Source of the DNA: a virus
DNA: 37,525 nt
Direction: 5' to 3' (one strand)
IMG/VR virus record: IMGVR_UViG_3300025030_000270
Location: 1-37,525 of that record
Positions 12,398 through 16,718 of this stretch are shown piece after piece. The position numbers and the translations under genes were made by a program. The notes beneath the pieces were generated by a model, which searched no databases, had not been told where the DNA came from, and was given only the letters and a program-made list of their open reading frames with translations. How positions within the stretch are numbered: position 1 is the stretch's first letter; each line of letters opens with the position of its first letter.

Positions 12398-13170
12398 ACC
12401 TGCACTGCCCCTGCTGCCACGCCCAATACAGCATCGAAGCCCTCACCCAGGACGCCGCCGCCCGCGAGCTGCTCGGCATGCGCGGCACCATGCCGCCCAG
12501 CCTGCTCAGCTACCTCACCCTGTTCCGCTCCGAGAAGCGCGCCCTCTCATTCGACCGCGCCCTCAAGCTCGCCAAGGAGGCCATGCAACTGTCCGCCAAT
12601 ATCGTACAGTTGGACGCCGCCATGGCCGAGACGGTCGAGTCCATGCGAGCCAAGAAAGAGCAGGGCCTGGCCAAGCCCCTCAAGAACCACAATTACCTGC
12701 TGCGCGTCCTGGAGAACACCCCCGAGAGCGGCACCACGGCTCTCGCCCCCAGGCAGAAACAGACTCCCGGCACCAGCAAGCGCGCCCAAAGCTTCGAGGC
12801 GCTGGAGACCTGGGCCGGTGGCGAGTGGCTGCGCACCGCCATCTCCTCCGGGCTGCAGGCCCTGGTCGCGCTCTCCCTGGACAACACGCCCGCATCCGAC
12901 ACCATCTGCCGCACCGCGGACATCTGGTATCACGTGCTGACCAAGCACACTGCCCTGGACATAGAGGAAATTGACTCCCCCAGGGTGGCGCTGGCCTTTT
13001 CCGCCCTGCTCACCAAGACCGCAGGCCGCTGGCCCGACCCCAAAACCCTGAAAGACCTGCTGCCCAAGCGCCCGCAACGCCAGGCGCTGGAGCAGGTGGA
13101 AACCGAGGAGGCCAGGGAACGGGGCAAGCAGGCCGCCCGCGCCCTCACCGCACTTGTAGGAGGTAAATGA
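12394..13170 (+). CDS. CxxC-motif hypothetical protein upstream of mor
   Basis: The product has 258 aa from ATG 12394, which overlaps the stop of the cargo gene. The nearest GGAGG site is 14 bases away, so coupling or a moved site is possible. The N-terminus MNLHCPCCHAQYS holds a CxxC pair typical of a zinc knuckle. The rest is helical and Ala/Leu-rich, with a Gln/Thr/Pro-rich linker (residues 118-130). I do not recognise the family; the place in the early operon before mor suggests a DNA-metabolism or regulatory role. Codon use is GC-rich like the phage core. Confidence 0.78.
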   Translation: MNLHCPCCHAQYSIEALTQDAAARELLGMRGTMPPSLLSYLTLFRSEKRALSFDRALKLAKEAMQLSANIVQLDAAMAETVESMRAKKEQGLAKPLKNHNYLLRVLENTPESGTTALAPRQKQTPGTSKRAQSFEALETWAGGEWLRTAISSGLQALVALSLDNTPASDTICRTADIWYHVLTKHTALDIEEIDSPRVALAFSALLTKTAGRWPDPKTLKDLLPKRPQRQALEQVETEEARERGKQAARALTALVGGK

Positions 13171-13511
13171 TGGACCTGTCACGTTATCCGGAGATGTACA
13201 AAGACCTGATCGAGAAAGCCGCCGGGCCTATCGCCAAAAAGCTGAACGTCTCTGCCGATGCCGCCAGGGAGGCGGCCTATCTGGTCTGCGAGGTGATCCG
13301 GAAGGACTGGGCAGGGATAAATCAGTATGTATCCAAAGGGTGCGCGCACGAGATAGACAAACGCGATCGCGAGATGTATGAGAAGTTCGACGGCAGCAAC
13401 CACAAGGCGCTGGCCAAGGAGTTCGGCATCACGGAGAGGCAGGTTTACACCCGTCTCGACATCATCCGGGAAGAGGAGTTCAGCCGCCGGCAGCCGGGTC
13501 TCTTTGGTTAA
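13167..13511 (+). CDS. mor: Mor-family transcription activator
   Basis: The product has 114 aa from ATG 13167 (or the next codon, ATG 13170) behind an AGGAGGTAA site; the start overlaps the previous stop. The N-terminal dimerisation helix and C-terminal helix-turn-helix (HKALAKEFGITERQVYTRLD) match the Mor/C family of Mu-like phages, with a conserved YVSKG block before it. In Mu, Mor turns on the middle promoter for C, which turns on late genes. Only one such gene is present here, so this protein probably activates the late lysis and virion operon directly. Confidence 0.93.
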   Translation: MMDLSRYPEMYKDLIEKAAGPIAKKLNVSADAAREAAYLVCEVIRKDWAGINQYVSKGCAHEIDKRDREMYEKFDGSNHKALAKEFGITERQVYTRLDIIREEEFSRRQPGLFG

Positions 13512-13720: not shown

Positions 13721-14311
13721 ATGGACCAAACCGCACTCATAGCAACCTTTCGCCGCATCATCCTGGCCAACGAGCTCGACAACAGCCTGGCGCACGTCCA
13801 CAAGTTCAGCGACCCGGACGGCGTCCGCTCCGGGAAGTCCGGCTGGTCCTTCGGCATCTCCCAGTTCGATTTGAAAAACAACCCCATAGCAGCCGCCTGC
13901 CTGCGCGCCTGCGGCTTCAGCGAGGCCGAGATCAAAGGGCTGATCGACCAGACCATCAACGCCCGCGCCCTGGAGCCCAAGCTCAAAGCGGCCGCCGCCA
14001 CCATCGAGCTGTTCGACCAGGCGCAGCTCAAAGGATGCGTCGTGCGCGCCCAGCGCATCCTCTACAAGCGCGCCATCACCCCGGCAAACGACAGCGGTTT
14101 GCTGGCCGTCGCGGACTACGCCAACCAGTACCACCTCTCCGACATCCTCAAGCCCGGCTACCTGATCCACTACCTGTTCCGCCTCGGTCGCCCCTTCACC
14201 GCCGCCGATGTGCTGCAGTTCAAGCTGGCGGGCACCAAGTACGGCCGCGAGCACCCAGGCGACTGCCGGAGGCGCTACGAGAACCTGATGAATATCATGG
14301 ACGCAGCATGA
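13721..14311 (+). CDS. Probable endolysin (lysozyme-like)
   Basis: The product has 196 aa from ATG 13721 (GAGGGGG site). It is the first late gene, where Mu carries its lys gene. The N-terminal part has a helix with Glu18 (ILANELDN) followed by KSGWSFGISQFDLKNNP, which resembles the region after the catalytic Glu in phage lysozymes and muramidases with a Phe-Gly-x-x-Gln-Phe-Asp block. There is no signal peptide, so release would need a holin or pinholin; none is certain here. Family assignment is by motif shape and context, so the enzyme class is tentative. Confidence 0.65.
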   Translation: MDQTALIATFRRIILANELDNSLAHVHKFSDPDGVRSGKSGWSFGISQFDLKNNPIAAACLRACGFSEAEIKGLIDQTINARALEPKLKAAAATIELFDQAQLKGCVVRAQRILYKRAITPANDSGLLAVADYANQYHLSDILKPGYLIHYLFRLGRPFTAADVLQFKLAGTKYGREHPGDCRRRYENLMNIMDAA

Positions 14312-14562
14312 AGTTTTTAGCCGTGGGCGCCTGCTTGCTCGCCCTTACCGGCTGCGCTTCTCTGGGCCAGCGCGAGAGCTCGGTGACACTCCCGGCAGGG
14401 GACGTCTACAAGGTGCGCTGCCAGTCCGACGGTGCATTGAAATACCGTAACGGGGAAGTCAGCATCGAGGTGGACAACAGGGGCAGACAGGGGTTGTTCG
14501 AATCGGTTTTTGGAACCATGGCGCTCGGATTCGCACGGGCGCCGGAAGTTATCGCTAAATAA
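14308..14562 (+). CDS. Lipoprotein in the lysis region (first)
   Basis: The product has 84 aa from ATG 14308, overlapping the endolysin stop. It has a signal sequence with lipobox LTGC (Cys at residue 17), then a polar segment with short strands. Small outer-membrane lipoproteins beside an endolysin are often outer spanins, and that is the best guess. It lacks the Pro-rich body of typical Rz1 and no inner-membrane Rz partner is adjacent. Confidence 0.75.
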   Translation: MKFLAVGACLLALTGCASLGQRESSVTLPAGDVYKVRCQSDGALKYRNGEVSIEVDNRGRQGLFESVFGTMALGFARAPEVIAK

Positions 14563-14571
14563 GAGGTGCGC

Positions 14572-14757
14572 ATGAAAAACTTTGCATTGGCCGTCTGCCT
14601 GATGGCCCTCACCGGCTGTGCCGCCCTGGGCGAGATAGTCGACATCCTTTCCCCCGAGCCGGTGCCCGTATGCGACAGCGAATCCGTAGGAGCCGAACAC
14701 GACGGCATGCAGTGCCTCAAACTGTCCGACGACACTTACAGGTGGGTGACCAAATGA
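14572..14757 (+). CDS. Lipoprotein in the lysis region (second)
   Basis: The product has 61 aa from ATG 14572 behind AAGAGGTG; an in-frame GTG two codons earlier overlaps that site. The signal sequence again ends LTGC (Cys at residue 17), and the start resembles the first lipoprotein, suggesting duplication of the export part. The mature part has two cysteines and ends DDTYRWVTK. It overlaps the next gene by four bases. Confidence 0.72.
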   Translation: MKNFALAVCLMALTGCAALGEIVDILSPEPVPVCDSESVGAEHDGMQCLKLSDDTYRWVTK

Positions 14758-15188
14758 ACGTGATCCAGATGCAGCTCTATGCGCCGGCCAGCTACATAGC
14801 TGCCCCTCCCGAGACGCGGCTCCAGGTCGTCAACGGATGCGGCCCCGGCGGCTGGAAGGTCGACCTGGTGCCCGACCGCATGTGGGGGCTGGACGTCTCC
14901 CCGGCCTGCGACATCCACGACTGGATGTACGTTGTCGGTTTGACGCTGGCGGACAAAGAAGAAGCCGATCGCGTTTTCCTAAACAACCTGCTGCGTCTCA
15001 TCGACTCCGCGCCCGGCTGGCATAACCAGCTCTGGCTGTTGAAGCGCCTGCGCCGCAACCGCGCCCGGTTCTACTACGAAGCCGTGCAGCACTTCGGTGG
15101 TCCGGCCTTTTGGTCAGGAAAAAACCAACAGACCAACCTGGTCCCCGCATCCTCAGCCGCAGCCGGTGCCGGGCAGATCGGGGGGTAG
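14754..15188 (+). CDS. Phospholipase A2-like protein (group XIV-type motif)
   Basis: The product has 144 aa from ATG 14754, overlapping the preceding stop. NGCGPGGW, then PACDIHDWMY (Cys52, His55, Asp56) and ADRVFLNNLL (Asp72) reproduce the layout of bacterial and fungal group XIV phospholipase A2: Gly-Cys...Pro-Ala-Cys-x-x-His-Asp and a following Asp-Arg-x-Phe helix with the catalytic His and its Asp partners. No signal peptide is seen. The gene sits in the lysis cluster after two lipoproteins, so membrane damage at lysis or modification of the envelope is plausible. The C-terminal 30 residues are low in complexity (Ala/Gly/Ser). Confidence 0.75.
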   Translation: MNVIQMQLYAPASYIAAPPETRLQVVNGCGPGGWKVDLVPDRMWGLDVSPACDIHDWMYVVGLTLADKEEADRVFLNNLLRLIDSAPGWHNQLWLLKRLRRNRARFYYEAVQHFGGPAFWSGKNQQTNLVPASSAAAGAGQIGG

Positions 15189-15189
15189 C

Positions 15190-15402
15190 GTGACAGACGA
15201 GATCGACAGAGCGCAGGCCCTCAACGAGCAGTTCCTGACCGGCGTCCTGGCCGATCACCAGAGCCGCAAGCCTAAAGGCGACAGCCGCGAGACCTGCCTC
15301 GACTGCGAGGAACCGATACCGGAAGCGCGGCGCCAGGCCGCTCCCGGATGCCGCCGGTGCATAGGCTGCCAAACACTACAAGAAAACTGGAGACCGATGT
15401 GA
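15190..15402 (+). CDS. DksA/TraR-family zinc-finger protein
   Basis: The product has 70 aa from GTG 15190, which begins one base after the previous stop. The C-terminal half is the TraR/DksA zinc finger: Cys36-x2-Cys39, EEPIPEARRQA, and Cys57-x2-Cys60 (C-x17-C spacing as in DksA). The short N-terminal helix matches phage and plasmid TraR forms that bind the RNA polymerase secondary channel. It may retune host transcription at the late stage. It overlaps the next gene. Confidence 0.88.
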   Translation: MTDEIDRAQALNEQFLTGVLADHQSRKPKGDSRETCLDCEEPIPEARRQAAPGCRRCIGCQTLQENWRPM

Positions 15403-15860
15403 CATCTGCCATCAACTACACCCCTTGGATCTTCGGCTTTAGCGTATTCCAGTTCGCCTGGTCCACCGTAATTGCCATCTACGTCTGGTACAGCAACAAG
15501 GAGAAGGTCACTAACACCCGCTTCTCCGCCCAGGATGAACGGATCACCAAGATCGAGACCGACATCCAGCTTGGCAAGAGCGGAACTGACGCCGCCATCA
15601 AACTCCGCAAAACCGAAACAGATGCCGAAACTAAGCTGCGTGAGGAACGGCACTTAGGCCTAGTTAAACGCTTGGAGGAGATAGCAGTGGAAGTGGCGCG
15701 TCACGCCGACTGCAAGCACCATCATGTTTTAGAGCAGCGCTTGGACAATATGAACGGCTCCCTCAAGAAAGTCGAAGGGGTCATCGAAGGCCGCATGGAA
15801 GGGATCGGCAGCGCCCTCGACATGATTCAACAGCACCTGATTTCCGGAGGGAATAAATAA
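15399..15860 (+). CDS. DUF2730-type membrane-anchored coiled-coil protein
   Basis: The product has 153 aa from GTG 15399 (GGAG upstream), overlapping the previous stop. One hydrophobic span near residues 9-29 (WIFGFSVFQFAWSTVIAIYV) is followed by a long charged coiled coil and a C-terminal helical segment. Length, layout and place between lysis and terminase genes match the DUF2730 proteins of Mu-like phages. The role is unknown; an anchored holin/antiholin-like or spanin-like role has been imagined for such proteins but is not shown. Confidence 0.7.
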   Translation: MTSAINYTPWIFGFSVFQFAWSTVIAIYVWYSNKEKVTNTRFSAQDERITKIETDIQLGKSGTDAAIKLRKTETDAETKLREERHLGLVKRLEEIAVEVARHADCKHHHVLEQRLDNMNGSLKKVEGVIEGRMEGIGSALDMIQQHLISGGNK

Positions 15861-16160: not shown

Positions 16161-16718
16161 ATGGGCAAGCGCGCCGACAAGGAACAAACGGCCATCGAGC
16201 TTTATGCCGGAGGTATGGAGATCCCGCAGATCAGTGCCGAGCTGGGCGTCTCCGAGAACTCCCTGCGCACTTGGAAGAAGCGCGCCGGCAACGAGTGGGA
16301 CGAAGCCCGCGCCCTGTGCCGCAAGGCCTTTGTGAGCAGCATGGAGGATGTGGGATCAAGGCTGCGCCGATCCAGAGAGATCGCCGCTACCCTGGGTGGC
16401 AAGGCCGGACTTGAGGGGCAGGGGCAAATGGGTCAAGTGATCAACGAGCTGCTGCGCTCGCTGCTCTACGACCTTACTGCCAAGGGCAACCTGGGCGGGG
16501 AAGAGATGTCCGCTACCATTGAGCAGCTCAAGGGCCTCGCCCTCACCATGCACCGCCTGGAGGGCGCCGCCAACCTGAACCTCAAGCGCGAGGCGGAGAT
16601 CCGCAAGCAGGCATTCGAACAGGCGGCAGAAACGGTCGAGAAGACGGCGCAGTTGGAAGGCGTCTCAGCCGAGACCATTCTTAAGATCCGTCGCGACGTG
16701 CTGATGATGGCGGCGTGA
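16161..16718 (+). CDS. Terminase small subunit (DUF1804 family)
   Basis: The product has 185 aa from ATG 16161. The N-terminal helix-turn-helix (IPQISAELGVSENSLRTWKKR followed by NEWDEARAL) and the long helical C-terminus fit DUF1804, the small packaging subunit of many Mu-like phages. It recognises DNA and regulates the packaging motor encoded next. It ends overlapping the large-subunit start. Confidence 0.87.
   Translation: MGKRADKEQTAIELYAGGMEIPQISAELGVSENSLRTWKKRAGNEWDEARALCRKAFVSSMEDVGSRLRRSREIAATLGGKAGLEGQGQMGQVINELLRSLLYDLTAKGNLGGEEMSATIEQLKGLALTMHRLEGAANLNLKREAEIRKQAFEQAAETVEKTAQLEGVSAETILKIRRDVLMMAA

Follow-up and report, generated by a model that had tools for sequence, protein, structure and literature searches.

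The window, by which we mean the whole stretch of 37,525 nucleotides analysed here, comes from an IMG/VR virus record and has a Mu-like layout. Between its genes for a Mor-type activator and a Mu gp27 family protein lie an endolysin candidate, two predicted small lipoproteins, a protein with phospholipase A2 (PLA2) features, a DksA-type zinc finger protein and a transmembrane (TM) protein (Table 1). The initial annotation had placed the PLA2 gene after an endolysin and two lipoproteins, and this order stands: the endolysin candidate and two lipobox ORFs precede it. The PLA2 gene is an uninterrupted ORF whose product carries the motifs NGCGPGG, CDIHDWMY and ADRVFL (residues 71-76), and its ATG lies within the 4 bases that overlap the stop of the second lipoprotein gene. 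An N-terminal signal peptide or pro-sequence was sought in the product by inspection, and none was seen. Among the 9 window proteins scanned against Pfam and PHROGs, no holin was recognised. No spanin pair was recognised either, spanins being easily missed and hard to detect by profile. The TM protein has no DUF2730 match in Pfam and is therefore assigned to gp25 by position only. The second lipoprotein resembles, by eye, the gene immediately upstream (-1) of the PLA2 gene at another locus (L033).

The product of the endolysin candidate gene matches no Pfam family at the cut-off. It has homologues in L002, L003, L008, L009 and L028, and in six sequences that include it Glu18 is invariant and the motif SGxSFGxxQ is shared. 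Its structure model (pLDDT 88.4) aligns with chitosanases at Z 12.4 to 10.1, two of them entitled as E19A mutants complexed with substrate, with a type VI effector at Z 9.8, and with T4 lysozyme and phage or prophage muramidases at Z 8.8 to 8; no Foldseek E value is better than 0.08, and for helical models a Z under about 13 can reflect a common arrangement. Judging from the model, the protein is probably a glycosidase of the lysozyme superfamily, and for this reason we take 13721-14311 as the endolysin gene.

Table 1. Features around the PLA2 gene in the window
Feature	Coordinates	Strand	Basis
Mor family transcription activator	13167..13511	+	PF08765, E 4.4e-20
Endolysin candidate, 196 aa, without SAR or signal sequence by inspection	13721..14311	+	lysozyme-superfamily-like model
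Predicted small lipoprotein 1, 84 aa, LTGC lipobox	14308..14562	+	no Pfam match; best PHROG E 0.099
Predicted small lipoprotein 2, 61 aa, LTGC lipobox; 4-base overlap with PLA2 start	14572..14757	+	lipobox rule
PLA2-fold protein, 144 aa, without signal peptide by inspection	14754..15188	+	
NGCGPGG, residues 27-33, with Cys29; candidate Ca-binding loop	14832..14852	+	sequence, conservation
CDIHDWMY, residues 52-59: Cys52, His55 (catalytic by alignment), Asp56, Tyr59	14907..14930	+	profile, conservation
ADRVFLNN, residues 71-78: Asp72, dyad partner of His55	14964..14987	+	aligned to Asp85 of 1faz; 68/68
DksA/TraR-type zinc finger protein	15190..15402	+	PF01258, E 4.1e-11; phrog_54, E 1.5e-22
N-terminal TM segment and charged domain, GTG start; Mu gp25 position	15399..15860	+	phrog_736, E 3.6e-7 (unknown function)
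Mu gp27 family, terminase small subunit	16161..16718	+	PF11985, E 2.2e-22

Profile, fold and conservation of the PLA2 protein

Searches with the single sequence were weak: phmmer against the PDB gave no convincing match (the PLA2 8k1w came fifth, at E 1.3), and the Pfam and PHROG scans gave sub-threshold matches alone. A family profile was therefore needed. Relatives were gathered from 22 virus-contig loci, 1 bacterial genome and 1 Vibrio phage, and profile A1 was built from 21 sequences, namely those of the window, of L001 and of 19 of the 22 virus-contig loci, with L006, L018 and L023 omitted as duplicates or a fragment. Against 177,635 PDB sequences, the top four matches of this profile were all microbial PLA2s, 1faz (E 7.9e-6), 4aup (0.0031), 8k1w (0.012) and 7ygk (0.04), and the next was an unrelated protein at E 0.12. 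By counting in the alignment to 1faz, His55-Asp56 corresponds to His64-Asp65 and Asp72 to Asp85. The residue after the catalytic His, here Asp56, is the usual Ca ligand in PLA2s. The initial annotation had read a catalytic His-Asp layout from the motifs; the layout is present, but the catalytic pair indicated by this alignment is His55 with Asp72, not His55 with Asp56.

Structure modelling and a PLA2 profile search, both of which had been suggested as checks, gave a predicted PLA2 fold as well as PLA2 matches. The AlphaFold2 model made with A1 has a pLDDT of 81.9; from model and alignment, the HD motif sits on one helix and the partner Asp on the next, and the loop with residues 31-40, where the Ca site would lie, is poorly modelled (mean pLDDT 53). 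In a Foldseek search of the PDB, the first five chains (four entries) were PLA2s at E 0.0033 to 0.19 and the remainder were unrelated by title, no E being below 0.001. VIA-align grouped the same four PLA2s above all other structures, 4aup (Z 10.0, rmsd 4.0, 102 aligned), 7ygk (Z 8.2, rmsd 4.1, 92 aligned), 8k1w (Z 7.9, rmsd 4.5, 98 aligned) and 1faz (Z 7.8, rmsd 3.7, 96 aligned), with the next, unrelated structure at Z 5.6 and with the reservation that middling Z values for helical models, this one included, can reflect a common arrangement. Among viral models (BFVD), the best match was a Vibrio phage PLA2 domain protein (E 3.4e-8), followed by a phage "Phospholipase A2" (0.009) and, lower, by an uncharacterised phage protein and, weakly, by densovirus PLA2-type proteins (E 0.08 and worse).

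A wider scan found 78 loci, including the 22 earlier contigs, each counted once. With the window, L001 and L025 these make 81 loci, of which L095 yielded no gene call; clustering at 90% identity left 68 sequences, the window's included. Among the 19 columns counted, Gly30, Pro40, His55, Asp56, Tyr59, Asp72, Asn78, Tyr107 and Val111 are identical in 68/68. Since part of the loci had been found by the pattern CDIHDWM, the count was repeated on the 48 sequences without this pattern, and His55, Asp56, Tyr59, Asp72 and Tyr107 are present in all of them; Asn78 belongs to the other search pattern. Conservation in relatives, a further check proposed at the outset, thus yields an invariant dyad across the 68 non-redundant sequences. 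In the candidate Ca loop, Gly30 is invariant, Cys29 is found in 65/68, Asn27 in 57/68 and Gly32 in 26/68. Of the 68 sequences, 65 have Cys29 together with Cys52 and 3 have neither, and no sequence has just one of the two; in the 48 sequences without CDIHDWM the corresponding numbers are 45, 3 and 0. The pair is replaced by Ala/Ala in L060 and L075 and by Met/Gly in L080, and because L060 and L075 are alike, these losses amount to about two events. Being kept or lost together is the pattern expected of two cysteines bonded to each other. The N terminus of some members includes a hydrophobic stretch, which in L043 was scored as TM by a simple rule.

The PLA2 motifs noticed from the start in this product are therefore borne out by the family profile, the predicted fold and the invariant residues. 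Taking these three together, the assignment of the window protein as a PLA2 is supported, and we infer that it is active. Its nearer kinship is less simple. The window protein scores 14.6 bits against PF09056 (Phospholip_A2_3; cut-off 29.4) and 17.7 bits against PF07087 (DUF1353; cut-off 22.5), passing neither, and a profile search of the window's record with PF09056 gave no match. At E values up to 1, PF07087 is matched by all 21 A1 members (best 5.9e-5), PF09056 by 14 of them (best 8.8e-4). In a single BLASTP comparison, the window protein aligns with a DUF1353 protein of a bacterial genome (L109) at E 3e-7, through the HD and AD motifs; this DUF1353 protein itself has no match in the PDB. 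As described in the report on TtaP (PMC11525133), that DUF1353 protein is a PLA2 proven by assay and by a D85A mutant, and is distantly related to group XIV. Judged by these comparisons, the window protein appears to belong to a phage subfamily that lies between the group XIV PLA2s and DUF1353. The initial label "group XIV-like" can be retained for the kinship seen by profile, fold and conservation, and needs qualifying in that the protein falls below the PF09056 cut-off, has one Cys pair and is equally DUF1353-like.

Gene neighbourhood and alternative roles

Presumed endolysins near the PLA2 gene match a Pfam family in 7 of 10 cases, namely GH108 (L001, L007, L012 and L014), Amidase_2 (L005), Amidase_3 (L010) and peptidase M15_3 (L015); those of L008, L009 and L013 match none. 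We searched 50 records for six families, these four together with M15_4 and phage lysozyme, which we take to represent at least four unrelated kinds. The 50 were left from 66 candidate records after omission of the bacterial genome L001, of L029, whose gene abuts the edge of its contig, and of 14 contigs shorter than 13 kb; the window and L025 stand outside the 66. A match to an endolysin family is present in 31/50 records, and its distance to the PLA2 gene, for which a fixed length of 360 was used, is at most 500 bases in 18, at most 1 kb in 20 and at most 2 kb in 21 of these 31. Random placement on the same contigs gave means of 1.6, 2.5 and 4.4, respectively, a comparison that somewhat overstates the enrichment because late genes cluster; in 20,000 shuffles the observed counts were never reached, the highest being 10 within 1 kb and 13 within 2 kb. 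Three of the matches are below cut-off, one near (L041) and two far (L102 and L100), and without them 20/28 lie within 2 kb. In the remaining 10 of the 31 records the endolysin is 2.2-57 kb from the PLA2 gene. Nineteen of the 50 records have no match to the six families; four of these (L026, L027, L034 and L035) have a homologue of the window-type endolysin at most 3 genes away and 15 have neither. L028, which also has such a homologue at most 3 genes away, is already among the 21.

Lipoproteins recur as well. Under a simple lipobox rule applied to ORFs of less than 300 aa from a simple ORF caller, some of whose ORFs are spurious (chiefly in the background), small lipoproteins are predicted for 21/240 genes at positions -2 to +2 (20/68 loci) versus 0/350 at a distance of 4 to 8 genes. 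In 35/66 loci the preceding ORF runs 1-20 bases into the PLA2 gene. For the neighbour tallies we used 122/132 upstream and 118/134 downstream proteins, leaving out apparently spurious or duplicate ORFs; no spanin appears among the best 25 of the 70 and 101 PHROG families and of the 38 and 26 Pfam families in these tallies. Ten lipoprotein- or holin-like neighbours were scanned and gave no informative family except phrog_462 "lipoprotein" (E 3.6e-4, L001). A DksA/TraR-type gene often neighbours the PLA2 gene in Mu-like members, accounting for 11 of the 118 downstream proteins scanned. The setting in a phage lysis region that the initial annotation had described is thus upheld in so far as endolysin and lipoprotein company recurs beyond this window, and is tempered by the 10/31 records with a distant endolysin.

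Three further loci lie in other surroundings. A 140-aa family member is encoded at L115:4971-5393, on a 1.85-Mb replicon of Vibrio sp. THAF191d, with no recognisable phage or lysis gene around it and with neighbours that look, by eye, RidA- and LysE-like. In two bacterial genomes from the phylum to which the Desulfosarcina seed belongs (L105 and L106), PLA2-like stretches match A1 at E 2.3e-9 and 1.2e-7, within frames that by eye carry Rhs/YD-type sequence, the L105 frame having one stop; their sequence suggests that they are PLA2 ends of polymorphic toxins.

The DUF1353 genes at large present a more mixed picture. With one DUF1353 protein as query, 258/50,697 phage records match, and the context was surveyed in 20 records among the matches listed (40 of the 258). 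In 5/20, a gene annotated for lysis is found no more than 2.5 kb away on the same strand (Bjorn, FNU4, DMCA, Helicobacter prophage BK070132 and gmqsjt-1). No such gene was seen in the other 15, many of which are large phages and several of which have neighbours annotated only as hypothetical; pv27 was not counted among the five, its "endolysin" being 2 kb off, on the other strand and beside baseplate genes. In the genome description of Fusobacterium phage FNU1, the DUF1353 gene and an amidase gene are two ORFs apart (PMC6591296). Given 5/20 near and 15/20 not, we claim a link with lysis for the family of the window PLA2 and not for DUF1353 at large. In Salmonella phage gmqsjt-1 (L123:2411-2752), a DUF1353 gene annotated as "tail assembly chaperone" follows genes for a lysozyme, a hypothetical protein and a DUF2514 protein. 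Since this gene lies in a lysis region, its annotation is doubtful and may be wrong.

Such annotations, which DUF1353 homologues often carry, raise the alternative of a virion or assembly protein: either a packaged PLA2-fold component that acts on the membrane at entry, as PLA2 does in parvovirus capsids, or a tail-assembly factor. The weak densovirus matches in BFVD would fit this alternative. So would the copy in L070 (on the same contig as L017), which follows a Mu gp31 homologue at a distance from the lysis genes, and the position of the DUF1353 gene amid head and tail genes in Sulfurimonas phage SNW-1 and, as its description has it, in Francisella phage KIRK (PMC7924643). The window protein itself has a weak match to phrog_1158, "tail assembly chaperone" (E 0.0046); we set this reading lower because the match covers 38 residues and because the annotation it shares with DUF1353 is attached to at least one gene, that of gmqsjt-1, in a lysis region. 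Taking this together with the recurrence of the window PLA2 family beside endolysins and lipoproteins, we regard a virion or assembly role as unlikely.

The protein could also be a moron product or a secreted effector, of advantage to the lysogen or directed against competitors or eukaryotes, like Rhs-linked toxins. The prophage phospholipase of group A streptococci, as presented in PMC2920897, offers a comparison, and the Rhs/YD-type frames of L105 and L106 and the Vibrio replicon copy with no lysis gene nearby point the same way. However, the window protein is without a signal peptide by inspection, its gene sits among core phage genes and overlaps its neighbour, and in the phylum that contains the Desulfosarcina seed a match is present in only 5/395 genomes, the seed's included; we consider this reading quite unlikely. 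That the fold is kept and catalysis lost, leaving a Ca- or membrane-binding regulator of lysis, is very unlikely, since the variation at Asn27 and Gly32, the poorly modelled loop and the three members without both cysteines are set against His55, Asp56, Tyr59, Asp72 and Tyr107, whose invariance would be unexpected in a dead enzyme, and since losing the Cys pair need not kill the enzyme, TtaP being active without such cysteines in the account of PMC11525133.

Proposed role in lysis

The reading we favour, and hold to be fairly probable, is that the window encodes a signal-less PLA2 that attacks the host envelope during lysis of a Mu-like phage. The protein would be made late, as an active, Ca-dependent PLA2 that stays idle in the cytoplasm, where Ca is low and the environment reducing. 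Upon escape of the endolysin it would get to the periplasm, bind Ca and close the Cys29-Cys52 bond. There it would cleave phospholipids in two places, the outer membrane's inner leaflet and the damaged inner membrane, and the lysophospholipids and fatty acids produced may weaken the outer membrane. Lysis of Gram-negative hosts is described in terms of holin, endolysin and spanin; if a PLA2 accompanies endolysins of unrelated kinds, lysis would gain an enzymatic way across the outer membrane. For Mu, the lysis proteins described are gp22, the spanin pair gp23/gp23.1 and, as releasin, gp25 (PMC9239132). The same paper states that at 10 mM Mg lysis depends on spanins and that cells become spherical without them. 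Set against the description of Mu, the window resembles Mu in that the PLA2 and the lipoproteins occupy the gp23/gp23.1 slot, between the endolysin and a TM protein at the gp25 position; where Mu combines a SAR endolysin with spanins, it has an endolysin without a signal, accompanied by two predicted lipoproteins and by the PLA2. Because the PLA2 and the lipoproteins lie at the spanin position of Mu, the PLA2 would add to the spanin step or substitute for it.

A broader idea can be put forward tentatively. Many phages of Gram-negative hosts may carry an overlooked enzymatic membrane step, in which Ca and oxidation activate a cytoplasmic PLA2 once the inner membrane is breached, the enzyme acting beside or instead of spanins and moving between unrelated endolysins. 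TtaP and TtsA, the latter presumably a GH108 member, could then be a lysis pair taken from such a phage. If this is true, a role at the outer membrane would be predicted for TtaP, whose origin would also be suggested, and part of the widespread DUF1353 or "tail assembly chaperone" group would gain a possible function.

Comparison with known systems

An annotated phage PLA2, a proven DUF1353 PLA2 and a phospholipase proposed in the WO lytic cassette are already known. Within the literature searched, what seems new is a His-Asp PLA2 recurrently paired with six Pfam endolysin families and the window type, together with the paired-cysteine pattern. Among the matches listed in the open-access literature, we found no paper that assigns a part in phage lysis to a His-Asp PLA2. 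Patatin, a Ser-Asp hydrolase, is unrelated to such PLA2s. A lytic cassette built on patatin has been put forward for phage WO; according to its description, the phospholipase gene adjoins a holin-like gene (PMC9203015). The window is like that cassette in that a phospholipase is proposed for lysis, and unlike it in having an endolysin, the cassette being described as without a canonical one. For Klebsiella phage KP1 and relatives, a phospholipase is called a host-lysis gene in a sentence that leaves its kind unstated (PMC9902359). An annotated phage protein, the "phospholipase A2 domain protein" of Vibrio phage 1.097.O (AUR87155.1), is 44.5% identical to the window protein over 81%, and a lipobox gene precedes its gene as in the window. 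Unlike the window, Vibrio phage 1.097.O belongs to the Schitoviridae, its PLA2 gene comes after the terminase gene, and no annotated lysis gene is found in the 10 kb examined.

With the group XIV/XIII PLA2s of Streptomyces violaceoruber (1faz) and Tuber borchii (4aup), the best profile and fold matches, the window protein shares the His-Asp dyad, the Asp following the His, the core helices and one Cys pair. Unlike group XIV, it is without a signal or pro-peptide, and its Cys-Cys stretch is longer than that of 1faz, 23 versus 16 residues when Cys45 is taken, as we assume, as the first cysteine of 1faz. It has only Cys29 and Cys52, whereas group XIV enzymes are described with four cysteines and two disulfides (PMC11525133).

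TtaP offers a parallel in gene company. As related in the same report (PMC11525133), TtaP is without an overt signal sequence and is cell-associated, and the typhoid toxin islet that encodes it also encodes the muramidase TtsA; toxin release by TtsA is there said to need disturbance of the outer membrane in addition. Both have look-alikes in prophages, TtaP among DUF1353 proteins and TtsA among muramidases, as that report points out. The account adds that deletion of ttaP gave no detected envelope defect and that its discoverers found no biological function for it. On that description, the window protein is like TtaP in its His-Asp dyad, in the Asp after the His, in having no overt signal sequence and in the company of a muramidase or endolysin gene, and it is unlike TtaP in having a Cys pair that TtaP lacks and in its length, 144 versus 125 residues.
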